DNA of 64,000 nucleotides, taken from NCBI GenBank assembly GCA_017632935.1, contig JAGBQJ010000010.1, positions 1 to 64,000 on the forward strand. The letters run 5' to 3'. Every line of letters starts with the position of its first letter. The stretch's first letter is position 1. The position numbers were made by a program, and so were the translations under genes. Of this stretch, positions 4,878 through 23,829 are shown one piece after another. Below the pieces are notes generated by a model that saw nothing but the letters and a program-made list of their open reading frames with translations, ran no database searches and had not been told where the DNA came from. This DNA is from Bacteroidales bacterium. GTDB taxonomy: Bacteria; Bacteroidota; Bacteroidia; Bacteroidales; F082.

Positions 4878-6011
4878 TTATTTCACCTGCACCTTGCTGA
4901 TGCTCCAGCTTTGGCCGTTGTATGCTTTCACTAGATACATGCCTGAAGCCAAACTGGATACGTCGATAGTGTGCCGTTTTCCGTTGGCTTGGCCTTGCAT
5001 GACGGTCTGTCCGTTCATGTCGATAATCTCATAGCGGCGCAAGCCTTCGAGGCAGAGGGTCATCTCGCCTTGGGTGGGGTTGGGATAGACAAGCATCATA
5101 TCCGTGACGGGTGCTTCGTTATGTGGGACGCCTTCAAACATGCCGTATTTGAAGATATAATCGCAGACGTAAACGAGCTGTCCGCCATCGTTAGCGGTCT
5201 CCCAGGCGTAGCTGAGGGGACGGTTGGCGAATGGGTCCCAGGTATAGAAGGGCTCGGGGTGATAGGGCAGGAGCACATGGTTGATGGTGCATTCTTCGTC
5301 GTATGCGTAGCTCACGCGGTCGACGACTTGACCGTTGGAGCTTTTTTCGCGATGCATGCAGTTGCCGTTGGCGTCATAGATTCTGTCGATGCTGGAGTCG
5401 GGCAGCCATCCGTTTTCCCAATAGAAGTAGTTCTCGTTGGTGCAATGTTCAGCTTCGTCATAGAAGTAGGTAGTCAGGGCTGAGTTGCTCCAGCCGGTGC
5501 CTCCCCAGGCGTCGTTGTATTCTTCGAGGAGTTGGGAGCAGAGGCCGTTGTCGTAGCTATAGGTGCCGCGCATAAGCAACATGCCGCCGAGGGTCATCTC
5601 ATAGCCGGTGAGCACGTCGCCTTCGTATTGGTAAGAGTAGACGCCTTGCACCTCGAAGCCGCTGCCCCAGTCGTTGTAGTTGGTGCGGGTGAGGCGGTGG
5701 TTGTTGTCGTCGTAGGTATAGGAGATATAGCTCGGGAAGATCCATTCGTTGTCGTAGTATTGGTAGCAGTCGATGCGGGTCACGTTGCCGCGATCATCAT
5801 AGAAAAGCGAGTCGATGAAATCATCGATTTCGCCGCCCATGTTGGAGGTAGCACGGCAGGCTTCCAATAAGTTGTTGGCGTTGTAGTGGAACTGCACTTG
5901 ATCGACCTCGTCGTCGGAGTAGAAGCGGTCGAGGAAGTAGTCTTGCGCCATGGCCGTGCGGCATGTCAGCAAGGCCATGATGATTAGGAGGAGGTGTTTG
6001 AGGTTTTGCAT
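4878..6011 (-). CDS. Secreted T9SS-sorted protein with YD-type tyrosine/aspartate repeats
   Basis: The protein is 377 residues from the ATG at 6011. This start is chosen because it gives a clean signal peptide (MQNLKHLLLIIMALLTCRTAMAQ); the longer reading adds 41 residues in front of it. The mature part is rich in Tyr, Asp and Asn with recurring YDDRGNVTR, YTYDDNNHRL, YSYDNG and YDANGNCMHR units, resembling the YD repeats of Rhs-type beta shells but without a toxin region. The last 75 residues are a Por/T9SS type A sorting domain (VYPNPTQGEM, then the DMNGQTVMQG strand and SSLASGMYLVKAY), ending KVQVK. It is therefore predicted to cross the outer membrane by type IX secretion. Confidence 0.85.
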   Translation of the reverse strand: MQNLKHLLLIIMALLTCRTAMAQDYFLDRFYSDDEVDQVQFHYNANNLLEACRATSNMGGEIDDFIDSLFYDDRGNVTRIDCYQYYDNEWIFPSYISYTYDDNNHRLTRTNYNDWGSGFEVQGVYSYQYEGDVLTGYEMTLGGMLLMRGTYSYDNGLCSQLLEEYNDAWGGTGWSNSALTTYFYDEAEHCTNENYFYWENGWLPDSSIDRIYDANGNCMHREKSSNGQVVDRVSYAYDEECTINHVLLPYHPEPFYTWDPFANRPLSYAWETANDGGQLVYVCDYIFKYGMFEGVPHNEAPVTDMMLVYPNPTQGEMTLCLEGLRRYEIIDMNGQTVMQGQANGKRHTIDVSSLASGMYLVKAYNGQSWSISKVQVK

Positions 6012-12415: not shown

Positions 12416-15400
12416 TTACCTAACAATAACTTTCACAGCAACGCTGTTTTGGTTGTTTTGCAAGCTGATGACGTAGACGCCAGTGGCGAGGCTGTGGCTG
12501 ATGCGCTCAGTGCTGCCCGCGTTGATTTGGTGTTGCATCATCGGCTGACCGAGGACGTTGTACACGGTCATGCTATAGTGCGTGTTGTCACTGTTTTCGA
12601 TGACAAACTCGTGGTCGGTGTTCCACACCGTCACATTGGCTGCAACGGTCTCATTCACGCCATCGTCGGTGAGGTCGATGAAGATGGGCGCGTCAAGGCC
12701 GCCGTTCGGGTTGATGGTGTTGGCATCAGGATACCATTGACCTTCAACGGTTTCATATTCCACCGAATAGCCATCCATGTCGTAAACCCAGATGTGATTG
12801 ATACCGGTTTCATTCACGTTGGGCAGGATGCCGCCAAACCAACCGTCTTTGCCAGCCACCAATTCTTTATAGAAATCGGCATACTGGTTGATGTTGACAT
12901 AGTCGATGCCAGTGGTTTCAATCGGTGTGGAGTAGACGGGACGTTCCATGTGATTGACATCGGTATAAAGTGCAGCGAATGTCATAGAGGCTTCCTCGCT
13001 CTTTGCGTAGAAGGCAGTGCCGCTATATTCATCGTTCTCGGTGCCGAAGTTGAGCACGGTGGCATAGTCTTCAGTGGTGAAAGTCTGTTCAACCGTGGTG
13101 CCGTCGTGACCATCGTTGAGGCGGATGCGGAGATAGACATGGTTGCCAGGTGTGAAGCGTGCGTTGGCCGTAGGCTCGTTAATAAACCACACCAAGGCGT
13201 CGCCGTCTTCATCGGTGGTGAACTCACCATAGCCGCCTTCGGTTGACAGGCTCGGGCTGGTGCTGCGGTAGAAGCCTTCCGGATTAGCATAGATCACGTT
13301 ACCTGCACCGGCCGTTTCTGGACCGTCATTGTCGTCCACGAATTGGTTGGTATAGCGGTAGGTGGTGCTGGGCTCAAGGTTGATGATGTAAACAGCCGTG
13401 GCAACGGGTACGCGGTTGTTGTTGCTGCCGTTGTTGCCTTGGATGTAGAGCGGCATGGCGGCTGCGATGGCAGGCTCGTCTTCACTGTGGACGGTGCCCG
13501 TCAGGCTGACCTCGGTAAAGGCGTCGCCACCTGCATGGCTGATGCTGCCGGTATAGGCACCGATTTCAAGATCTTCCATCAAGCGGACATAGATGGTCAC
13601 GGGCTGGTCGTCAAGTTGTCCATCGGCGTAGGCGATTTCCAGCGTCTCGCCAAAAGTTTCGTCATCTAAAGAGATTTCGAAGTTTTCGCTGGCAGTAACC
13701 GTGATGTTGCCATCACCAAGCAAGTTGGCACCAATCAGAGTATAGCTTTGCGAATTTGACGGGCCGTTGTCAACCATGTAGTCGAGACCATTAATAGAAT
13801 TAGGTGTAGCCGTCAGGGTCGGGTTGGTGTTGCTGCCCGAGACGAGCATGATGTCGTCGATTTCCCATGCGGCGGCAGCGTCATCTGTACAAATGTATTT
13901 GAATGCGATGTAGCAGTTGTCGCCGCTGAAGCCATCGAGGCTGATTTCGCCCGATTCGGTCCAGCTCCAGCTGCCGCTTGAGAGTGCGCATTCAAGTTCT
14001 TGCCATGTGGCTGCGGTCGGGTCTTGTCCGTCGTAGTCGCTGGAGAAGTAGGCCTCGATGTCGGGACCGGTGTAATTCATGGCTGTGCTGAAGGTCAGCA
14101 CGACGTCGCTGTAGTTGTTCAAATCAAAGGCAGGCGAGATGAGCCAGTCTTCGTTGGCACCGTGGTTGTAGCCGTTGATGTAGGCGTAATGGTTGCCGCT
14201 ATGTTCAGCGATACTCCACTCGGCCTCGTCGCCTTCCACGCTGACTTGTGTCCAGCCATGCCATTCTTCCTCTTCCCAGTCTTGGTTGAAGATGATGGTG
14301 ACATCGGCTTGAATGACATATTCGGCGCTGACGACCGGGCTGTCGTTGTAGCCGACCTTCTCGGCGTAGGCCCAGAGGGTCATGCTTTCGTCAACGGTGA
14401 TGGCCTCTTCGTATTCGTTCCAGGGACCGTCCTCAGAATCAGTGCTGAAATAGATGGTCGCGCCATCGGTAGTGCAGTTGATAGTGACCTCTTGGACCTC
14501 ATAGTATGTGCCGGCAGCAGGTGTGAAGGTTGGGGCTGCCACAGTGGGTGTACCGCCTTCGCCTTGCATGAAGATGTCGAGGAAGAAGTTGTACTCGCTG
14601 TTGTTTATATTAGAAATGGAGTAGGGACCGACCACGCTGTTGTTGTCTGTCACGCGGAGTGCCATGACGCGGTCGGTTTGTGTGGTGTTGGTGATGTTGA
14701 AACCGAGATAGTTGGGCACCAGGGCATTATCACCAGCGATACCAGCTTCAATCGTCCAAGTGATCTTGTCGCCGGTGAAGTTAAAGTTGGTGCTGCTGTT
14801 ATAGCTGAGCACTTGGCCGTTGGCGTTGGTGAAGGTGTAGCCATCAGAAGTGATGTCGATGGTCCAATAGTAGCTGTCCTCGTCGGCCATGATGTCGGCG
14901 GAGATGACTTCATCGGTGCCGTTCATCGTGCTGGTGAACTCGGTTGTGCCAAGTTTATTGTTCGTCAAGGTGTTGGCGACGGCGAGATAGGCATTGGCGG
15001 TTTCGTTGTAGCGGGCGGCCAGGATGACCTTGTTGCCAGCAACGAGTTCGCTGGCATCGCTGATGCGGACATAGTCGCCACCAGGGACAGGTTGCTCGCT
15101 GACGGTACCGCTGCAAGTGACCTCGATGTCGTCAACGTCGTCGCAGGTAACGGTGATTTCTTCGTCGTTATATTCGCCAACGGTGAGGCCAGCCTTCATG
15201 CGGACGAAGATGCTTGTTGCTTCCACATTGCCACCAGTTGTCGTGAGGGTGATGGTGCTCTGGGCTTCGAAGTCGTCACCCGAGGCAAGTGAAATCTCAA
15301 AGTCGGTGGCATCAGTGATGGTGATGTCATCGCTTAAGTTGAAGCCGCTGACGGTGAAGCTCTGTTCAGCCGAAGGACCGTCGCCTTCGATGTAGCTGAA

Positions 15401-18400
15401 TCCTGTCAAGGTCAAAGGCGTGACGGTGACGACGGGTTCTGAGGTCTGGCCAATGAGCATGATGTCGTCGACTTCCCATGCGGCGGCGTTGCCGTCTTCG
15501 CAGGTGTATTTGAATCCGATGTAGCATTCGTTGCCGCTGAAGTTGCTCAGGTCGATGTCGCCTGATTCGACCCATTCATAGTTACCCGTGGAAAGGGGGC
15601 AGGTCAATTCGGTCCAAGTGGCTGTGGTCGGGTCTTCGCCGTCGTAGTCGTTGGAGAAGTAGACTTCAATGTCGGGACCGTTAAATTTCATGGCGGTACG
15701 GAAACTCAACGTCGGGTTGCTACATGCGTCGAGGTTAAAGGCGGGCGAGATGCACCAGTCTTCGTTGGTACCATTATTATAGCCGTTAATGAAGGCGTAA
15801 TGGTTGTTGTTGTGGGTACCTATGCTCCATGCAGCTTCGCCTTCGACGTCAACGAATGTCCAGCCATTCATTTCGCCTTCCCAGTCTTGGTTGAAGATAG
15901 TGACGAAGCCCATTTGGATGGAATAGGTGGCCTCGGCGATGGCGCTGTTGTTGTAGCCTTCCTTCTCGGCGTAGGCCCAGAGGGTCATGGTTTCATCGAC
16001 GGTGATGGGGCCTGAGTAAACAGTCCAAGGACCGTTTTCTGAAACAGTGCTATAATAAATGGTGGCACCCTCAGTGGCGCATTCGATGAGCACTTCCTGA
16101 GACTCAAAGTAGGTGCCGGCAGCAGGCGTGAAGGTGGGCGTGGCTACGGTAGGTGTGGGCGGGTCGCCACCTTCGGTCTTCACGAAGATGTCGAGGTAGA
16201 AGTTGTAGTTGCCAGCTTGTCCACCAGTCATATTGGATTTTGCGTATGGACCAAAATTGTAGTTGTTGTTTAAAGCGAACGCCCTTCCGTCATTGTTCAC
16301 ATTGGTAAGTACGAAGCCCGTGTAATTTGGCACCATCGTGCCTTCTCCTGAAGTTTCATTTGTAATTTCCCACTCGATGTTGTCACCGCCTGTGGCAAAG
16401 TTGGTGCTGCTGCTGTAGCCAATCAGCTCTCCATCGGCGTTGGTGAAGGTGTAGCCGTCGGTGGTCACGCCAACAACCCAATAGTAACTGCTTTCTTCGT
16501 CAGCGATGGAGGCAGGCAGCACCTCGTTTTCGTTGGCAGTGGCGGAGGTGAACAGCACGCCTGTGGGTTTGCCCGACGAGGCGTTGGTCATGGCGTAGTA
16601 GTCGTTGGCATTGCCATCGAAGCGGGCTGCAAAGACCACATAATTGCCATCAGCAAGGTCACTCAGATCGCTGATTCTGACATAATTGCCATCGCCAGGG
16701 GTTGGCGGGTCGGGAGGAGTAGGCGTGCCGCCTGTTACCGTGCCACTGACGTTAATGAACAGCGTGTCGGCATCTTCGGAAGCGACAGCGATTTGCTCGT
16801 TATAAGTTCCTGCTTCAAGGCCAGCCTTCATTCTCACATAGATGCTGATGTCGTAGAATTGTCCTGACGAAGGGATGTAAACCACCGAAGGATCCTCCGC
16901 GACGAATTCGTTGCCTCCAAAGGTCGACACTTCAAAACTCTCTGAAGGGATGATGTTTACAATGTCAACTAAGTAGTCGCCTTCTAAGACGAAATTGGCA
17001 ATCTCAGATGGACCTCCTTCATCATAATCGTAGGTGAAACCATTCAGTGTGGTGGGAGTGGCGGTCAGGACAGGGCGATGCTCAAACAGCACATCACTGG
17101 TGTCGGCCACGCGCAACTGCACTGCGTTGTAACATCCGATGATGCCCGTCACGGTCACCCTATCACCTTGAATCATACCCTCCACGTTGGGGATGCGATA
17201 GATGTTGAGGCTATTGTCGTTTTGGGTGATGGGAGTGTTGCCGCTGGTGTTGATGGCACCGATGATGGCGTCCGCAATCTTCACGCGAGTCGACTGCAAC
17301 ATATTGTTTTCGCTATAGTCGTTGTTGATTTCGGCAATGGTCTTCTCAGCCAGAGGCAGAGGATTGTTGCTCGAAAGCACAATGAACTCGTTGATATTGC
17401 CACCGTTGATGTTGCTCAATTCGGCTAGGCCGTTATATGCAGCACGTTTACCATAGGCACGCACGTTGTCGCCAATGGCCAGCGTTGAGGGAACAGTGTT
17501 GTTGTTCAGGAAGAGCACAATACCGGCCGTGATGTCTTGCACGTACACGTTACGATTGTCGATGAAGGTGACGGTGCCTTCCACGCAGCCGTATTCGTCA
17601 TTGTCGAGAGCACGGGCTTCGGCGATGGTGATGGGCTCGTGGATGGTATAGGTGGCCTCAACGACGGTGCTGTTGGCATAGCCTGAAGCGGTAGCCATGG
17701 CCTTGATGGTCGTGGTGGTGCTCACAGTGATAGGAGTGCTGTAAACGAGGCTTTCCGTAGTCGGTTCGGTGCCATCAATGGTGTAGTAAATTGTGGCGTC
17801 ATCGGTGGTGCAGCTGAGGCTCACATCTTGGGTGGTGATAAAGCTACCAGCGGCAGGTGTGAAGACAGGTGCTTCAGTCACAGGCTGATCGCTCACTGAG
17901 CCGCTTAAGGCGACCGTGGCGTTCAGTGTGCCTGAAATAAGGGTGACATTGCCGGTATGGGAACCTACGGCAAGGCCAGACTTCATTCTGACATAGACGG
18001 AGGCACTCACCGCGCCATTGGTGGGGGTGAGGGTGACGGAGCCAGCATAAGTGCCGTCAGAAGTGGTGGACACTTCGAAGTCTTGAGGTGCTGTAACGCT
18101 GACGTCGCCCGACAAGTCGCTGCCCGTGACGGTAAAGCTCTGGGCTTGCGAAGGACCAGCATCAAAGGTGTATTGGAAGCCAGTCAGCGAAGTTGGGTTG
18201 ACGGTCAGCTGGGGGTTGAGGGCTACGTTCTCTTCCACGCTGCCAATCATGGTGTTATAATAAGTAGAAGAAGAGATTCCAACGAAATAGCCTTTCACCA
18301 CGACTTCTTTACCATCCAGCGAAGTGAAGTCTGTGCTGATGGGGTAGGAGATGCTACCTTGAGCGGTAGTGGCACCTTCGATGTCGGTGATGTTATAGTG

Positions 18401-19585
18401 ATTGCTGTTAATGGTCAACGTGCCTACGTATTGGACGTAATTTGAAAGTTGCGTTGGGGTAGTGGAGGCCACTCTGCTGTCCATCTCAGCACCAGTAATG
18501 ACTGTAGGTTCTTCAGCTACATAATTGGAAGTGGTGGCAGTCGTGACCGTGGTGGTGTTGTTGAATTCAAACACACCTCCATAGGCTACAACGGAGCCTG
18601 ACAGTCTCACCTTGTCGCCGATGGCGTAGCTGGACTGGGAATAGCTCGTGTTGTAATAATAGATATAACCTGTGCCGTCTCCTACGATGAAGCCTCTGGT
18701 GCTCTTGGCCACGATAGTGCCTTGCACGGTGTAGGTGCCGGCTGCGGTGATGTCGGAGATGTTGTTGTACACATTGGGGTTACCAGCTTGGGTCACCGTG
18801 ACGTTCTTTGTAACCGTCTGAGTAGTGTTGTATGTATAGGTCAAAGTGACGGAAGCGGTACGCTCAGAGGCAAGGGTATTAGCAGCGCAAGTGAAAGGCA
18901 CCGTTGTACTAACCGTTCCAAGGGTGAGCCAATCTGATGTTGTGGTGGCTGTTACATTACCGCCAGAAACAGGGTTGTTGACGGTGTATTCTATGGCACC
19001 ACTAGTAGCGTTGTATTCGATTTCAACATCCTCTGCAGAAATGTAGGGAGTTGAGGAGGAACCGCTAACTCTCTTATAGTAAGTAAAAGTCTGGTTCTGG
19101 ATGTTGGAGTTGATGCTAGTATAGCATCTCCAGTCTTGGCTACTGTAAATACCAATGTAGCGGCTAGTGCCATTATGAACTAGATAATTGCTGTTCGCAT
19201 CTACATGGAAGGTTTTGTTCGTATTGGTTCCCACCCTGACGCCATTATTTGTACTAGTACAGTATAGCCACGTGGCTGTGGATCCATTAGGATAGAAAGT
19301 ATAACCGTCTGTGGCATTGCCGCTAACAGTCCATTGGATGTTTTCAGGTATTGTTCCTGACAATGTGTTGCCTGTTACTGTGACTGCATAGGCGGCAGGA
19401 GCACTAGAAGTCCCGTTGCTATTTGTCATTGCATAATTTGAGCCGTTGTTGCCCACAATGACAAACACATCAGTAGAGGAAAGATTTGATAAAGATGTAC
19501 TTTCCCATGTGTAGGTTTGCGCCCGTAGGCTTAACCCCGTCAACAGCAAAACCGCTGTCAACAAAAAAGTAAGTTTTTGTTTCAT
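12416..19585 (-). CDS. 2389-residue modular secreted protein with BACON, CHB_HEX-type, MAM-like and T9SS sorting domains
   Basis: A signal peptide (MKQKLTFLLTAVLLLTGLSL, cleavage after RAQ) leads the protein. Visible modules, in order: a 150-residue beta domain (about 25-172); a BACON domain (about 181-270); an OB-like domain (about 275-360); a first copy of a 100-residue Ig-like domain beginning TGFQYTFDAGPS; a chitobiase-C-like domain (FTPAAGSFITTQDVSLSC, ending ATYTI); a second OB-like domain; further Ig-like copies. Then comes a block repeated twice: a VRISD domain related to the N-terminal one, a CHB_HEX-type domain (FTPAAGTYFESQEV or FTPAAGTYYEVQEV), a MAM/choice-of-anchor domain (FNQDWE) and an Ig-like domain. 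The end is a type A sorting domain (VYNVLGQPMMQHQ, SLATGVYVISLQN, KVIVR). There is no catalytic motif. It is probably a surface carbohydrate-binding or adhesive protein. Confidence 0.88.
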   Translation of the reverse strand: MKQKLTFLLTAVLLLTGLSLRAQTYTWESTSLSNLSSTDVFVIVGNNGSNYAMTNSNGTSSAPAAYAVTVTGNTLSGTIPENIQWTVSGNATDGYTFYPNGSTATWLYCTSTNNGVRVGTNTNKTFHVDANSNYLVHNGTSRYIGIYSSQDWRCYTSINSNIQNQTFTYYKRVSGSSSTPYISAEDVEIEYNATSGAIEYTVNNPVSGGNVTATTTSDWLTLGTVSTTVPFTCAANTLASERTASVTLTYTYNTTQTVTKNVTVTQAGNPNVYNNISDITAAGTYTVQGTIVAKSTRGFIVGDGTGYIYYYNTSYSQSSYAIGDKVRLSGSVVAYGGVFEFNNTTTVTTATTSNYVAEEPTVITGAEMDSRVASTTPTQLSNYVQYVGTLTINSNHYNITDIEGATTAQGSISYPISTDFTSLDGKEVVVKGYFVGISSSTYYNTMIGSVEENVALNPQLTVNPTSLTGFQYTFDAGPSQAQSFTVTGSDLSGDVSVTAPQDFEVSTTSDGTYAGSVTLTPTNGAVSASVYVRMKSGLAVGSHTGNVTLISGTLNATVALSGSVSDQPVTEAPVFTPAAGSFITTQDVSLSCTTDDATIYYTIDGTEPTTESLVYSTPITVSTTTTIKAMATASGYANSTVVEATYTIHEPITIAEARALDNDEYGCVEGTVTFIDNRNVYVQDITAGIVLFLNNNTVPSTLAIGDNVRAYGKRAAYNGLAELSNINGGNINEFIVLSSNNPLPLAEKTIAEINNDYSENNMLQSTRVKIADAIIGAINTSGNTPITQNDNSLNIYRIPNVEGMIQGDRVTVTGIIGCYNAVQLRVADTSDVLFEHRPVLTATPTTLNGFTYDYDEGGPSEIANFVLEGDYLVDIVNIIPSESFEVSTFGGNEFVAEDPSVVYIPSSGQFYDISIYVRMKAGLEAGTYNEQIAVASEDADTLFINVSGTVTGGTPTPPDPPTPGDGNYVRISDLSDLADGNYVVFAARFDGNANDYYAMTNASSGKPTGVLFTSATANENEVLPASIADEESSYYWVVGVTTDGYTFTNADGELIGYSSSTNFATGGDNIEWEITNETSGEGTMVPNYTGFVLTNVNNDGRAFALNNNYNFGPYAKSNMTGGQAGNYNFYLDIFVKTEGGDPPTPTVATPTFTPAAGTYFESQEVLIECATEGATIYYSTVSENGPWTVYSGPITVDETMTLWAYAEKEGYNNSAIAEATYSIQMGFVTIFNQDWEGEMNGWTFVDVEGEAAWSIGTHNNNHYAFINGYNNGTNEDWCISPAFNLDACSNPTLSFRTAMKFNGPDIEVYFSNDYDGEDPTTATWTELTCPLSTGNYEWVESGDIDLSNFSGNECYIGFKYTCEDGNAAAWEVDDIMLIGQTSEPVVTVTPLTLTGFSYIEGDGPSAEQSFTVSGFNLSDDITITDATDFEISLASGDDFEAQSTITLTTTGGNVEATSIFVRMKAGLTVGEYNDEEITVTCDDVDDIEVTCSGTVSEQPVPGGDYVRISDASELVAGNKVILAARYNETANAYLAVANTLTNNKLGTTEFTSTMNGTDEVISADIMADEDSYYWTIDITSDGYTFTNANGQVLSYNSSTNFNFTGDKITWTIEAGIAGDNALVPNYLGFNITNTTQTDRVMALRVTDNNSVVGPYSISNINNSEYNFFLDIFMQGEGGTPTVAAPTFTPAAGTYYEVQEVTINCTTDGATIYFSTDSEDGPWNEYEEAITVDESMTLWAYAEKVGYNDSPVVSAEYVIQADVTIIFNQDWEEEEWHGWTQVSVEGDEAEWSIAEHSGNHYAYINGYNHGANEDWLISPAFDLNNYSDVVLTFSTAMNYTGPDIEAYFSSDYDGQDPTAATWQELECALSSGSWSWTESGEISLDGFSGDNCYIAFKYICTDDAAAAWEIDDIMLVSGSNTNPTLTATPNSINGLDYMVDNGPSNSQSYTLIGANLLGDGNITVTASENFEISLDDETFGETLEIAYADGQLDDQPVTIYVRLMEDLEIGAYTGSISHAGGDAFTEVSLTGTVHSEDEPAIAAAMPLYIQGNNGSNNNRVPVATAVYIINLEPSTTYRYTNQFVDDNDGPETAGAGNVIYANPEGFYRSTSPSLSTEGGYGEFTTDEDGDALVWFINEPTANARFTPGNHVYLRIRLNDGHDGTTVEQTFTTEDYATVLNFGTENDEYSGTAFYAKSEEASMTFAALYTDVNHMERPVYSTPIETTGIDYVNINQYADFYKELVAGKDGWFGGILPNVNETGINHIWVYDMDGYSVEYETVEGQWYPDANTINPNGGLDAPIFIDLTDDGVNETVAANVTVWNTDHEFVIENSDNTHYSMTVYNVLGQPMMQHQINAGSTERISHSLATGVYVISLQNNQNSVAVKVIVR

Positions 19586-19866: not shown

Positions 19867-20352
19867 ATGAAAAAGATAGTTCGAATGGTATGGATAGGAG
19901 CCCTGTCAGGCTTGGCTTTCCTGATTGCCTGTTGCTCCAGCTCCAGAGGCCTTACGAAGGAAGAAAAGCAACGGCTTACCAATGAACGCGACTCCATCAA
20001 AAACGTGCTCAAGACGCATTGGATGGCTACACCGGAGGACAATCCCGTCGCCAAGGCGGAATATGACGCGGAGACCGAACGCCTTCAGTATCAGATAGAT
20101 TCCATCAACTACTGTCTGGGCAAGAATGTTGATTTGGACAAGAGCAGAGAACGGCTGGAACAGAGCAAACAACGCAGCACGATCCAGTATCGTATCAGCC
20201 AGCTGAAAGAGGCTTTGCATTTCCGCGAGACGGCTTGCATCTACGGCTCACCCGAGGTCATGAAGGAATATGGCAAGGAGACGCAGAGGATGCGGCAGGA
20301 GCTGAAAGATCTTGAGAGTCAGCTCGAAGAAATGGACAACAAAAAGAAATAA
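19867..20352 (+). CDS. Small helical lipoprotein 1 with YGSP motif, candidate radical SAM substrate
   Basis: The protein is 161 residues from the ATG at 19867. It has a lipoprotein signal peptide (MKKIVRMVWIGALSGLAFLI, then AC) with the lipidated Cys at 22 and a second Cys at 23. The rest is mostly charged helix with coiled-coil character (KEEKQRLTNERDSIKNVL, RISQLKEALHF, RQELKDLESQLEEM). Near the C-terminus, between two helices, lies ACIYGSPEVM (Cys124, Tyr126, Gly127, Pro129). The same Y-G-x-P motif recurs in the next three proteins. I know no enzyme function for it. The context (four motif-bearing proteins, then a radical SAM enzyme) suggests it is a modification target displayed on the cell envelope. 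It opens the operon, 18 nt before the next gene. Confidence 0.75.
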   Translation: MKKIVRMVWIGALSGLAFLIACCSSSRGLTKEEKQRLTNERDSIKNVLKTHWMATPEDNPVAKAEYDAETERLQYQIDSINYCLGKNVDLDKSRERLEQSKQRSTIQYRISQLKEALHFRETACIYGSPEVMKEYGKETQRMRQELKDLESQLEEMDNKKK

Positions 20353-20370
20353 TTCATAAATCTTAATATC

Positions 20371-20700
20371 ATGGGAAGATTGTTTCGTAAACTATGGATT
20401 GGCTTGTTGTCGGGCACTGCCGCGCTAACGGCCTGCAATATCTTTTCGCCCCCGCCGTGCTACTATGGCCCGCCTGTTCTTCCCGGAGAGGAGGACACAA
20501 TCGTGAACACCAACCAGAAAGACCGTCGTGAGATGTTGCGCCAACGTATCAACCAGATTCATAGCATCCTTGAAAACCGCACCAATGCGGAGATCTACGG
20601 CCCGCCCGAGATGATGGAAGAATATGCAAGAGAGAACAGACGCTTGCAAGCCGAGGCCGATTCACTGGAGCAAGAGCTGAAGAACTTGGAAAATGAATAG
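20371..20700 (+). CDS. Small helical lipoprotein 2 with two YGPP motifs
   Basis: This 109-residue protein has a signal peptide (MGRLFRKLWIGLLSGTAALT, then AC) with the lipid Cys at 22, the same position as in its neighbours. A short Pro-rich segment follows with CYYGPPVLPG (Cys30, Tyr32, Gly33, Pro35). A second motif, EIYGPPEMMEEY, is at 74-85 between two charged helices. The C-terminal helix (ENRRLQAEADSLEQELKNLE) is coiled-coil-like. The two copies, one right after the membrane anchor and one in the helical hairpin, mark it as a paralogue of proteins 1 and 3. It lies 18 nt after lipoprotein 1 and 14 nt before lipoprotein 3. Function is unknown; candidate radical SAM substrate. Confidence 0.75.
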   Translation: MGRLFRKLWIGLLSGTAALTACNIFSPPPCYYGPPVLPGEEDTIVNTNQKDRREMLRQRINQIHSILENRTNAEIYGPPEMMEEYARENRRLQAEADSLEQELKNLENE

Positions 20701-20714
20701 AAATAGCGTTTGAC

Positions 20715-21296
20715 ATGAAAAAAGTAGTTCGCACAGTTTGGATCAGTGCCCTGTCGGGACTGGCATTTTTGGCCGCCTGCTGCACACAGAATGGCTTGTC
20801 GCGTAAGGAACGCAAACAACTCGTCCAGGAACGCAACGAGGTCATGATGGAGCTGGATAGGAACAGAAACTATGAGGTCGAAGGTTCTTTGGATGAATTC
20901 TTGGGCCACAAAGACGACATCTATGCGCTTGAGAACAGACTCGATGCCATCAACTCACGTTTGGGCGATTCCATCGACCTTGACCGCAATATCCGTCGCC
21001 GGCAGATTCTGCGTCGCATCGATTCCTTGGATTACCTTATCAAAAACTATATTCCTCCTTGCATCTACGGCTCGCCCGAAATGATGGAGCAAGGTGGGGC
21101 GCGTGTTTATACAGAGCTCGATCGCATGGAAGATGAATTGAAGGCGGCACGAAAGGAACTCGAGGACCTCGACCGCTCCGAAACAGATGGCCCGGAAATC
21201 ATGGAGCTGCTGTATGGCGGTCCCGATATCAAGATTGAGCCTATCGAGGAAAGAGTTATCTTGAAAGACACTATTCAAGACGAAAATCCAGAATGA
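20715..21296 (+). CDS. Small helical lipoprotein 3 with YGSP and YGGP motifs
   Basis: This 193-residue paralogue of lipoprotein 1 has a nearly identical signal peptide (MKKVVRTVWISALSGLAFLA, then ACC, lipid Cys at 22). Charged helices follow (RKERKQLVQERNEVMMELD; ALENRLDAINSRLGDSIDLD; RRRQILRRIDSLDYLI). CIYGSPEMM lies at 116-124, almost the same as lipoprotein 1. Another helical stretch (ELDRMEDELKAARKELEDLD) leads to a second motif, LLYGGPDIK, at 165-173. DGPEIM just before it echoes the SPEMM of the first motif. The tail is acidic. It is the largest of the set. No enzymatic motif; likely envelope-anchored and a candidate target of the radical SAM enzyme downstream. Confidence 0.75.
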   Translation: MKKVVRTVWISALSGLAFLAACCTQNGLSRKERKQLVQERNEVMMELDRNRNYEVEGSLDEFLGHKDDIYALENRLDAINSRLGDSIDLDRNIRRRQILRRIDSLDYLIKNYIPPCIYGSPEMMEQGGARVYTELDRMEDELKAARKELEDLDRSETDGPEIMELLYGGPDIKIEPIEERVILKDTIQDENPE

Positions 21297-21305
21297 TTGA
21301 AGGTC

Positions 21306-21572
21306 ATGGCAAACGAAGACAAGCCTGAAGAAAAACCCATCGAAGAGGAAGCCAAGACTTCATGTCCTGTTCCAGCAATGACGGAAGAGGAACTGGAGAG
21401 AGAGTTGAAGAGTATGATTGCCAGGGTGGAAGAGTTGCGTCGATTCAATAAAGAAGCCATCTGGGAACCTGCTGCGGCAACATACGGCTGCCCTGTGGTC
21501 CTTGGACCCAATAGTAAGCCACTTGGAGCAATGGGGCCTGTTGAAAACCAACCCGAGAAAGACGAAAAATGA
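21306..21572 (+). CDS. Small leaderless protein with YGCP motif, candidate RiPP-like precursor
   Basis: This 88-residue protein reads from the ATG at 21306; a TTG three codons upstream is a weaker start. It has no signal peptide. The first 20 residues are acidic (MANEDKPEEKPIEEEAKTSC), then a helix (MTEEELERELKSMIARVEEL), then a C-terminal core AATYGCPVVLGPNSKPLGAM containing Y60-G61-C62-P63. A charged leader-like helix followed by a Gly/Pro/Cys core is how precursor peptides for radical SAM maturases often look. It stands directly before the radical SAM gene (10-nt gap) and shares the Y-G-x-P motif with the three lipoproteins upstream. That it is the enzyme's substrate is inference. Confidence 0.7.
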   Translation: MANEDKPEEKPIEEEAKTSCPVPAMTEEELERELKSMIARVEELRRFNKEAIWEPAAATYGCPVVLGPNSKPLGAMGPVENQPEKDEK

Positions 21573-21582
21573 GAACAGCATT

Positions 21583-22659
21583 ATGAGTGAGCGCTTGGGC
21601 TTTTATAAAAAGGTGATGCTCGAACTCAACCACGCGGTGCTGCAGAAGCGCATTGATGAGCACGAGTTGCACCAATTGTTTTGGGAATGCACTTTACGTT
21701 GCAACCTCAATTGTCGGCACTGTGGTTCCGACTGCCGTATGCTTTCCGAAAAGGACGACATGCCGCTTGAGGATTTCCTCAAGGTCTTGGATGAGGTACG
21801 CGCCCATCAAGACCCGGGCAAGGTGATGGTCATCACCACGGGTGGCGAGCCCACCGTGCGCCCTGATTTGGCCCATTGCGGCGAGGAAATCTCGAAGCGC
21901 GGCTTCGTGTGGGGCATGGTATGCAACGGCATGTTGCTTTCGGCCGAGAAACTTAACGAGTTTATGGATGCTGGACTGATGTCGCTGGCGGTCAGTTTCG
22001 ACGGCTTCGAGGAGGACCACAACTGGATGCGTGGCAATCCCAACAGCTATAAAAACGTGTTGCGTGCCGTGGAAGCCATGAAACAGCACCCGAGCCTCAC
22101 TTGGGACGTCATCACCTGTGTCAACCAGCGCACCATCAAATATCTGCCCAAGTTCCGCGATTTCCTTATTTCCTTGGGCATACGCCGTTGGCGTTTGTTC
22201 ACGGTGTTTCCTTTCGGTCGCGCCGCCAATGAGCCCGACTTCAAGCTCAGCAACGAACAGTTTGTGCAGATGATGGAGTTCATCAAACAGACTAGAATGG
22301 AGGGTGTGATTCGCGCCGACTATGGCTGCGACGGCTTCCTCGGTAAGTACGAGGGCGATGTGCGCAACCATTATTATTCCTGCAGCGCGGGCATCAACGT
22401 GGCCTCGGTGCTGGCTGATGGCTCCATCTCGGGTTGCCTCAGCATCCGCAGCGACTACCATCAAGGCAACATATACAAAGACAGTTTCTGGGACGTCTGG
22501 CAAAACAAGTTCCAGGTCTACCGTGACCGGAAATGGATGAAGACCGACCAGTGCGAGCACTGCAAGATGTGGCGCTATTGCATGGGCAACGGCATGCACC
22601 TGCGTGACGGTAACGGCAAATTGCAAATCTGCCAATATCACATGATTAATCCTGTGTAG
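21583..22659 (+). CDS. Radical SAM/SPASM enzyme, rSAM/lipoprotein-system type
   Basis: The 358-residue protein is read from the ATG at 21583; the open frame extends upstream but that part overlaps the preceding gene. The CX3CX2C cluster that binds the SAM-cleaving 4Fe-4S centre is CNLNCRHC (Cys40, 44, 47). GGEPTVRP is the SAM-binding GGE motif. The last 100 residues carry a SPASM-type Cys set (YSCSAG, GCLSIR, CEHCKMWRYC, CQYH) for auxiliary clusters. The HQGNIYKDSFWDVWQNKF region fits the Bacteroidota family that, as I recall it, is filed as the radical SAM enzyme of an 'rSAM/lipoprotein system' (TIGR04133). SPASM enzymes usually modify peptides. Here it ends an operon of four proteins sharing Y-G-x-P, so those are its probable targets. 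A palindrome that includes its stop codon follows. Confidence 0.9.
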   Translation: MSERLGFYKKVMLELNHAVLQKRIDEHELHQLFWECTLRCNLNCRHCGSDCRMLSEKDDMPLEDFLKVLDEVRAHQDPGKVMVITTGGEPTVRPDLAHCGEEISKRGFVWGMVCNGMLLSAEKLNEFMDAGLMSLAVSFDGFEEDHNWMRGNPNSYKNVLRAVEAMKQHPSLTWDVITCVNQRTIKYLPKFRDFLISLGIRRWRLFTVFPFGRAANEPDFKLSNEQFVQMMEFIKQTRMEGVIRADYGCDGFLGKYEGDVRNHYYSCSAGINVASVLADGSISGCLSIRSDYHQGNIYKDSFWDVWQNKFQVYRDRKWMKTDQCEHCKMWRYCMGNGMHLRDGNGKLQICQYHMINPV

Positions 22660-22720: not shown

Positions 22721-23422
22721 ATGAAAAGAATATTGTTAGTTTCACTGTTAGCCGTATTGCTGTCAGCCCCTTTGCTGACTTTGGCTCAAGACGTAGTGTA
22801 TGTCAACACCGATGCCCCGGGTGTGCATAAGGAATACGACAAGAAATACGGCGGCTATGTATGGAAAAACGGCATGGGTAGCTTCATCTGCCGCGACAAG
22901 GAGATGAAGTCTATATGGGAAATGGACAAGAATGTCTATTTCACTGGATCCAATAATGATCCTGACAACCCCGAGGTGTCGCCTTTCTCCGGTATCAAAA
23001 AGGTGTGGGACAAGAAACGCGGTTGCTACGTATGGAAAAACGTGTATACGGGCGACTTCTTAGGCACCGACAAAGCCTCTGTCCAAAAAGAAGAAAAGAA
23101 GAAGGCAAAGGAACTTGCCGATAAAAAGAAGAAGGAAGAGCAAGCCGCGAAGAAGCAGCAGAAGGAAAAAGAAAAGGCCGAAAAGAAGCAGCAGCAAAAG
23201 AAGGAAACGCCTGAAGAGGCCATCCAAAAGTCGGAGAAGATGCTCATCACTTCCGACGAGCAGTTGCGTGAGGCTGAGGCTGCGCTAAAGGAGGCTAAGG
23301 CCATGTATGCCCAAGCCAAAGCCGAAGGCATCGACTTGAGTGAATACAACATTGATGCCTATATCAAACAAGCGGAAGATGCCATCAACGAGTATAAACG
23401 TGCTAGAAACAAAATGAAATGA
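22721..23422 (+). CDS. Secreted protein with two YVWKN repeats and Lys-rich coiled coil
   Basis: This 233-residue protein has a Sec signal peptide (MKRILLVSLLAVLLSAPLLT, cleavage after LAQ). Two related segments follow: KKYGGYVWKNGMGSFICRDK and KKRGCYVWKNVYTGDFLGTD. Residues about 125-165 are nearly all Lys, Glu, Ala and Gln, a long charged helix, and the C-terminus is another helix (AEAALKEAKAMYAQAKAEG). There is no T9SS sorting domain or lipobox, so it is probably periplasmic. I do not recognise the family. It overlaps the next gene by ATGA at 23419-23422 and opens an operon running to the response regulator. Confidence 0.75.
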   Translation: MKRILLVSLLAVLLSAPLLTLAQDVVYVNTDAPGVHKEYDKKYGGYVWKNGMGSFICRDKEMKSIWEMDKNVYFTGSNNDPDNPEVSPFSGIKKVWDKKRGCYVWKNVYTGDFLGTDKASVQKEEKKKAKELADKKKKEEQAAKKQQKEKEKAEKKQQQKKETPEEAIQKSEKMLITSDEQLREAEAALKEAKAMYAQAKAEGIDLSEYNIDAYIKQAEDAINEYKRARNKMK

Positions 23423-23829
23423 AAAAGACTCTAATATTGGTTTTATTGGCTCTGATAATGACGAGCTGTCTGCCAGGCAGACGCAAACCTGAACCTAAAC
23501 AATCCGTGGCCAAGGAAGCCGTATGGGATTTCTTTCTTGTCGGTACTTGGCAGTCTCCAGAAGCCACCGAGACCTTTTATGGCGACGGCAAGTATGTGTG
23601 TCATACCGTTGACTTGAGGGGAAGAGATTTGACCATCAACGGAAACTGGCGCTTAGACGACAATGAGAATTATGTTGTTTGGGTCACACAAAAGTCTGTG
23701 AAAAACGGGAGAAAAACCATCAGTTCGGAAAAGAAAGAGCTGAAGTATGTCATTAATTCTTTGGCACCGAACAAAGCTTTGGTGTATCAGGTGGGCGATG
23801 AGTATCGCTCTGCCGAATGGGTGGAATGA
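23419..23829 (+). CDS. Small lipoprotein of unknown function (lipocalin-like)
   Basis: This 136-residue protein has a lipoprotein signal (MKKTLILVLLALIMTSCLPG) with the lipid Cys at 17. The mature part looks like a small beta barrel: VGTWQSPEATETFYGDGKYV is the kind of strand-turn opening found in lipocalin-like domains, followed by GNWRLDDNENYVVWVT and KALVYQVGDEYRSAEWVE. No ligand can be inferred. It overlaps the upstream gene by 4 nt and the aroK start by 4 nt (ATGA at 23826-23829). Confidence 0.75.
   Translation: MKKTLILVLLALIMTSCLPGRRKPEPKQSVAKEAVWDFFLVGTWQSPEATETFYGDGKYVCHTVDLRGRDLTINGNWRLDDNENYVVWVTQKSVKNGRKTISSEKKELKYVINSLAPNKALVYQVGDEYRSAEWVE

Follow-up and report, generated by a model that had tools for sequence, protein, structure and literature searches.

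The window analysed here, 64,000 nucleotides of the Bacteroidales contig JAGBQJ010000010.1, contains a compact cassette that very likely encodes one modifying enzyme together with its substrates. The cassette (19867-22659) consists of five plus-strand open reading frames (ORFs), A to E, separated by gaps of 18, 14, 9 and 10 nucleotides, as described in an initial annotation made from the sequence alone, which gave a five-gene cassette with gaps of 9-18 nucleotides. A (19867..20352, 161 residues) and C (20715..21296, 193 residues) are helical lipoproteins, B (20371..20700, 109 residues) is a further lipoprotein, D (21306..21572) is a small protein of 88 residues and E (21583..22659, 358 residues) is a radical S-adenosylmethionine (SAM)/SPASM enzyme. 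The N-termini of A, B and C combine a putative signal peptide with a lipobox (LIAC, LTAC and LAAC, respectively) and no signal peptide was found in D, all judged by pattern and by eye rather than with a dedicated predictor, in line with the three lipoproteins and one leaderless protein first reported.

The six Y-G-x-P motifs named in that annotation were all recovered in A to D, namely CIYGSPEV in A (20242..20253), CYYGPPVL and EIYGPPEM in B (20464..20475 and 20596..20607), CIYGSPEM and LLYGGPDI in C (21066..21077 and 21213..21224) and ATYGCPVV in D (21483..21494), each range starting at the Tyr codon and covering Y-G-x-P on the plus strand. A retains a single intact site and also has a candidate, probably decayed one (HWMATPEDNP, 20017..20046, plus strand), which aligns with the REGSAIYGTPEIM region of locus L024 in alignment A2. 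The six motifs fall within 551 residues, for which 20,000 shuffles averaged 0.044 motifs and never gave more than 2. Family scans of A to D against NCBIfam and Pfam returned chance-level matches only, none above cut-off, and no match to the lipoprotein family TIGR04134 (cut-off 39.8 bits) at E-values up to 1.

E belongs to the NCBIfam family TIGR04133 (rSAM_w_lipo; 558 bits against a cut-off of 425, model positions 3-348 of 350) and matches the Pfam families PF04055 (Radical_SAM) and PF13186 (SPASM), which agrees with its first description as a CX3CX2C radical SAM/SPASM gene. The CX3CX2C motif of the radical SAM cluster (C40, C44 and C47, followed by G48-S49; 21700..21723) and the SPASM cysteines (267, 285, 324, 327, 333 and 350; 22381..22632, from Pfam and alignment) are conserved without exception across 24 aligned sequences, one of which is E. 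The predicted structure of E (mean predicted local distance difference test score, pLDDT, 88.3) is nearest to those of BlsE, anSME, PqqE and SkfB. TIGR04133 members are expected beside a lipoprotein gene, and E shares its cassette with A, B and C, called as lipoproteins by pattern and by eye. Since E is a TIGR04133 member, the pairing of enzyme and lipoprotein is already annotated, as was stated at the outset; no paper on TIGR04133 was found by family name or among the titles listed by topic, in a search that covered neither the splicease survey Scott 2022 nor Richter 2024. What appears to be new here is the shared Y-G-x-P tag, the further substrate types and a link to spliceases, enzymes that excise tyramine from proteins.

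The association between motif and enzyme was surveyed in 121 TIGR04133 loci, comprising the window, a second copy from its own genome (L129), 80 of 88 contig relatives and 39 loci from further genomes. The latter were 36 regions from 35 genomes, hand-picked across the score range from 69 positive genomes of the order, plus two regions from a search of family genomes and one from another search. Y-G-x-P was scored in same-strand ORFs of 40-400 residues ending at most 1.5 kb upstream, in the 119 loci with at least 700 nucleotides upstream (L084 and L087 were dropped). It was present in 112 of the 119 loci and in 35 of 40 clusters defined at 70% enzyme identity. The window's own cluster comprises 66 loci, which are near relatives, and at least two contigs seem to be repeated (L146 repeating that of L023, and L144 that of L063); counting by clusters removes such repeats. 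Y-G-x-P occurred downstream in 5 of 120 loci and on the opposite strand in 8 of 119, and 25 of 27 permuted or substituted control motifs were found in 0-11 of the 119 loci. The two high controls, YGP (25 loci) and YG.E (53 loci), derive largely from YGPP and from EYGxET after many sites. Seven loci have no same-strand upstream motif (L051, L077, L079, L145, L150, L165 and L166), which counts against the association; three seem to be near misses, L077 with a divergent 48-residue ORF carrying MYGPP, L079 with YATP in a lipoprotein that by eye resembles TIGR04134, and L145 with EYGVREP. The enzymes of L165 and L166 have 324 residues, are 32-33% identical to E and are encoded by ORFs that stop short of the usual SPASM end.

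A search of 100 family genomes with profile A2 (E ≤ 1e-5) found window-type lipoproteins in 18, and TIGR04133 was present in each of these; the remaining 82 have no such lipoprotein, though seven of them have TIGR04133. These 18 genomes are not independent, because all belong to the window's genus, in which 18 of 26 genomes have both components, one (G587) has the second enzyme type only and seven have neither. Across 295 sampled genomes of the order, TIGR04133 was present in 69 at E ≤ 1e-60 and over cut-off in 61; TIGR04134 was over cut-off in 39, of which 38 also have TIGR04133, the exception being G424. At E ≤ 0.001 TIGR04134 reached 88 genomes, many through weak matches in long ORFs, and these were not counted. 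Lipoproteins of the two kinds thus do not occur routinely without the enzyme in these genomes; had they done so, this would have spoken against the initial interpretation. In genome G560 an extra window-type lipoprotein with YGSPE (L194:1829-2113) lies on a contig separate from the enzyme and is a possible in-trans substrate. TIGR04133 is also present in records of Bacteroides, Phocaeicola and Parabacteroides, which are human gut genera; the locus L177 of Parabacteroides distasonis has both TIGR04133 and TIGR04134. A Phocaeicola plasmid outside the 121 loci (L176, approximately 5055-5600) encodes a TIGR04134-like YGTP lipoprotein 3' of a TIGR04133-like enzyme, and this ORF after the enzyme is the only one with Y-G-x-P in the stretch scanned.

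The partner proteins are of three types. Type 1 comprises lipoproteins of the TIGR04134 kind with AEYGTPYAxF-like sites, such as the partners at L086 and L135, which score 126.9 and 109.8 bits against TIGR04134 and both carry Y-G-x-P. In type 2 lipoproteins Y-G-x-P comes straight after the lipobox Cys, as in QACYGTPQ, an arrangement found in 15 of 138 lipobox-type genes. A relationship between types 1 and 2 is possible, as the longer type 2 proteins match TIGR04134 weakly (26-31 bits in G269, G282 and G360, all under the cut-off). Type 2 proteins of only about 60 residues have little besides the site, and the second copy in the window's genome (L006/L129) is of this short kind. That second TIGR04133 enzyme (G000:C40:164799-165845) is 45% identical to E, and upstream of it are a 62-residue lipoprotein with YGAP right after the lipobox Cys and an ORF with LYGPP. 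Type 3 comprises helical lipoproteins like those of the window, in which similarity to TIGR04134 was not detected. Beside another TIGR04133 enzyme, a 54-residue protein (L071:3113-3277) has an N-terminal CVYGPPPP and a C-terminal hydrophobic helix in place of the lipobox.

In the annotated TIGR04133/TIGR04134 pairing, lipoprotein partners with the same Y-G-x-P are likewise encoded just upstream of the enzyme, usually by one gene, whereas in the window each of four partner genes encodes one or two sites and none matches TIGR04134; C is modelled as helical and A aligns with C. Across the 121 loci, one Y-G-x-P ORF lies within 2.6 kb upstream in 91 (in L051, counted among these, it is an unrelated 287-residue ORF), two to five in 23 and none in seven. 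Multiple partners, initially contrasted with the usual single one, are therefore a minority pattern though not unique to the window; because the TIGR04134 proteins examined carry the same motif, the cassette is better described as an expansion of the annotated pairing than as a distinct system.

If the lipoproteins were not substrates, with co-transcription as the only tie and the motif having a structural role, the seven loci without the motif would be accounted for, and the link between enzyme and lipoproteins is one of sequence. We consider this very improbable, given the tight linkage and co-occurrence and a motif common to partners of different build. In addition, the AlphaFold model of C (mean pLDDT 76.0, predicted TM-score 0.57) places site 1 in a loop (111-120) that runs into helix 121-166, with site 2 lying in a loose, low-confidence tail, and thus neither in the core. 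A role as a docking or recognition tag, with the change made elsewhere on the lipoprotein, e.g. at the N-terminus, would suit the type 2 arrangement, where the tag could act near the anchor, and also alignment A3 (10 rows), where columns average 38% identity but 35 are invariant, those of C116, Y118, G119 and P121 of C included. This too seems improbable, since the up to 12 sites per cassette (at L014, within 4 kb upstream), lying N-terminally, in loops or C-terminally, suit a modified site better, and since no element common to the partner types was noticed besides signal peptide and lipobox, albeit without a systematic search. From these sequence patterns, Y-G-x-P is likely to be the modified site. 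The initial interpretation, which named no particular reaction, is supported in part: partners that differ in architecture have the motif in common, though not at a fixed place, and the nearby Cys, which had been proposed as a frequent companion, is optional.

Among 205 unique sites, which are dominated by window-type sites, 135 have V, L or I at position -1 and 79 have Cys at position -2, so that a Cys near the motif is not a requirement. Within positions -8 to +13, Y, G and P aside, no single residue occupies a given position in as many as half of the sites, the most frequent being R at -6 (99 sites), and therefore no crosslink partner is evident. These figures bear on the nature of the reaction. 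SPASM enzymes are known for crosslinks, epimerisation and oxidation, and chemistry of that sort at Y-G-x-P, whether a crosslink to Tyr or Gly (C-C, C-O or thioether), an epimerisation or an oxidation, with the tyramine kept, is a substantial if doubtful possibility. A thioether could form at the sites with Cys at -2, the fold of E matches BlsE, anSME, PqqE and SkfB alike, and PqqE is the best match of E by sequence among solved structures. Most sites have no Cys at -2, however, no second crosslinking residue stands out, and such chemistry would leave unexplained both the likeness of X-Tyr-Gly to splicease substrates and the enzyme residues shared with spliceases, described below.

The splicease PlpX excises tyramine at X-Tyr-Gly, and the cassette has six X-Tyr-Gly sites in A to D, the neighbours of E. 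To our knowledge, splicease activity has been established by experiment for the PlpX kind alone. PlpX is assigned to IPR026482, which we take to be equivalent to TIGR04103; the rows called splicease-type below are our own grouping. In PMC11002830, PlpX is presented as an IPR026482 SPASM enzyme studied with PlpY, a protein with a precursor peptide recognition element (RRE). PMC10533398 gives MYG and LYG as natural PlpXY sites, reports that the leader is not needed and that PlpXY acts on a short tag, and includes among the tags tried PIRP(G/L)YGLPI, which is a Y-G-x-P sequence, and AVAAGYGVVFPG.

As the ranking of families by the score of E did not single out TIGR04103, the comparison was extended to reciprocal scans, a tblastn search, a phylogenetic tree and signature residues. 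Reciprocal scans of four splicease-like proteins against 18,950 families placed TIGR04133 fourth for L123 and third for L119, L120 and L125, where the two splicease-type models came first. When plasmids were searched by tblastn with E, splicease-like proteins and their kin led among the 60 of 216 records listed, outside one TIGR04133-like record; the splicease-like matches listed, from Agathobacter, Azospirillum and Tropicibacter, had E-values of 6e-31, 6e-30, 2e-28 and 5e-24, with TIGR04053 (2e-20), MftC (2e-14), PqqE (4e-14) and NirJ (1e-13) lower in the list. The second enzyme tree was built from 38 rows, none of them AhbD, with L165 omitted. A branch with support of 97/95 separates TIGR04133, the splicease-like rows, the f17 proteins and L123/L174 from 11 outgroup rows, and approximately unbiased (AU) tests rejected the placement of TIGR04133 with TIGR04053 (p 0.012) or with NirJ/TIGR04347 (p 0.012). 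Like PlpX/TIGR04103 and TIGR03913, a TIGR04103-related family with a GDL motif encoded beside DUF1843 proteins, E combines CX3CX2C and SPASM with G48-S49, W203, G251, E257 and R261. These six residues are found in 88-100% of TIGR04133 rows and in each of the six splicease-type rows, against 0-27% of rows in the outgroup; the last three lie in GFLGKYEGDVR (residues 251-261, 22333..22365).

Splicease-like loci also resemble the cassette in encoding Tyr-Gly in a protein beside the enzyme, in two cases as L-Y-G-x-P. On a Nostoc plasmid, a Nif11 precursor ending in RGSIALYGLPPELF adjoins a 'nif11-class peptide radical SAM maturase 3', and in a Bacteroidota locus a 165-residue protein (L121:914-1411, reverse complement) with LLYGTPPVPLY near its end lies beside a TIGR04103-like enzyme; its counterpart at L120 ends in LTVLYMAHSK instead. 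The Nostoc locus (L171:3627-5448; precursor end GGRGSIALYGLPPELF) also has a 71-residue ORF 3' of the maturase gene, a PlpY candidate. At L123:1468-3599, a further splicease-like Bacteroidota enzyme of 483 residues is followed by a 214-residue protein without Pfam or NCBIfam matches. Towards its C-terminus this protein carries five copies of KYGYPC and a single KYGYPG, which resemble the KYGVP/KYGIP sites found beside the TIGR04133 enzyme of L160. As a group, the f17 proteins (L120-L122 and L124-L128, which have TIGR04103-like scores) were considered as support and set aside, since in the loci read only L121 had a clear Y-G-x-P neighbour.

Several observations weigh against a splicease reaction. 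E scores 118.8 bits against TIGR04103, far from the cut-off of 725, and is by score not a member of that family; it scores about equally to TIGR04103, TIGR04053, NirJ2, TIGR03913 and AhbD, and among 24 TIGR04133 members the best E-values of AhbD, TIGR04053 and NirJ2 are slightly better than that of TIGR04103. The best tree does not unite TIGR04133 and the six splicease-type rows to the exclusion of others, and enforcing that grouping costs 8.4 log units (AU p 0.23); TIGR04133 with PqqE (p 0.30) or with MftC (p 0.055) is not rejected, which keeps both among the possible nearest kin and favours other chemistry; MftC and PqqE are SPASM enzymes acting on a Tyr of a ribosomal peptide, with neighbouring chaperone genes mftB or pqqD at their loci, unlike the cassette. 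While PqqE is nearest to E among solved structures by sequence, SkfB is nearest to L119 and L123. The TIGR03913-type and Tropicibacter rows are themselves spliceases by inference. All ten DUF1843-type proteins examined beside TIGR03913/TIGR04103-like enzymes (L119, L172, L175 and L188) are without the Pro of Y-G-x-P, and in four of them YA or YM replaces YG. PlpX works as a complex with PlpY, and general family scans, made without an RRE-specific model, revealed no PlpY-like gene within the cassette or in the two downstream genes. PlpX/TIGR04103 substrates have a Nif11 or nitrile hydratase leader peptide (NHLP) leader, and no Nif11 or nitrile-hydratase-like leader family was among the NCBIfam and Pfam matches of A to D at E-values up to 1. 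Unlike PlpX/TIGR04103, TIGR04133 has mostly envelope lipoproteins as putative substrates, and E is missing the usual Cys 337 of the SPASM CX3C, C249 being invariant. In PMC10533398, only two GYGLPI insertions in FtsZ are marked modified and two LYGLPI insertions are not, so that a Y-G-x-P tag is insufficient in some contexts, and a tag ending in GYGVVFPG, with no Pro at that place, was also tried with PlpXY.

Because score, leader and partner protein exclude membership of the splicease family, E is described here as working like a splicease. PlpX-like tyramine excision, suggested by the site and by the shared enzyme residues, is our best single guess at the reaction, held tentatively. E, a cytoplasmic enzyme, would recognise a short, self-contained X-Tyr-Gly-x-Pro tag lying in a loop or loose tail of substrates that need share no leader domain, and the Tyr-Gly unit would be altered before lipoprotein export and lipidation. 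Tyramine, i.e. most of the tyrosine, would be cut out, with a mass change of -135.0757 Da. Electrophilic ketoamides would reach the envelope on A, B and C, which have five sites between them, and the ketoamide at the one site of D would stay in the cytoplasm. Reversible covalent capture or inhibition of proteases would be a plausible role by analogy with spliceotides, described as protease inhibitors in PMC11117315, which cites Scott 2022, although we regard it as rather unlikely for this system.

D was rejected as a conserved part of the cassette, its homologue being present in only one of 120 other loci (L012), and the genes at 22721 and 23419 were rejected as members, with homologues in 5 of 120 loci; these two genes after E (22721-23829) encode small exported proteins whose family matches are all below cut-off. 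Upstream, the minus strand encodes a secreted protein of 2389 residues (12416-19585), with a C-terminus that, by eye, we take to resemble a type IX secretion sorting domain. A single open frame of 6746 residues (27061-47301) has seven NGSSW-like pattern matches between residues 1616 and 4603. A nucleotide pattern for Y-G-x-P-like sites gave four matches in the window's genome, the same count as a reversed control, and was abandoned.

The shared motif and its link to tyramine excision turn an orphan pairing of enzyme and lipoprotein into a prediction with a mass. It is possible, still more tentatively than for the reaction itself, that TIGR04133 represents a large Bacteroidales family of lipoprotein-directed, leader-free spliceases, which would act on up to a dozen sites and on five or six lipoproteins per operon and would build an array of ketoamides in the envelope. 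With a similar degree of caution, in the C-Y-G-x-P class, to which the second copy in the window's genome belongs, the residue made into a β-amino acid would be the lipid-carrying Cys. Should this prove true, protein splicing through loss of tyramine would be common at the surface of bacteria in the gut, and these enzymes would provide another leader-free route for placing ketoamides in proteins.

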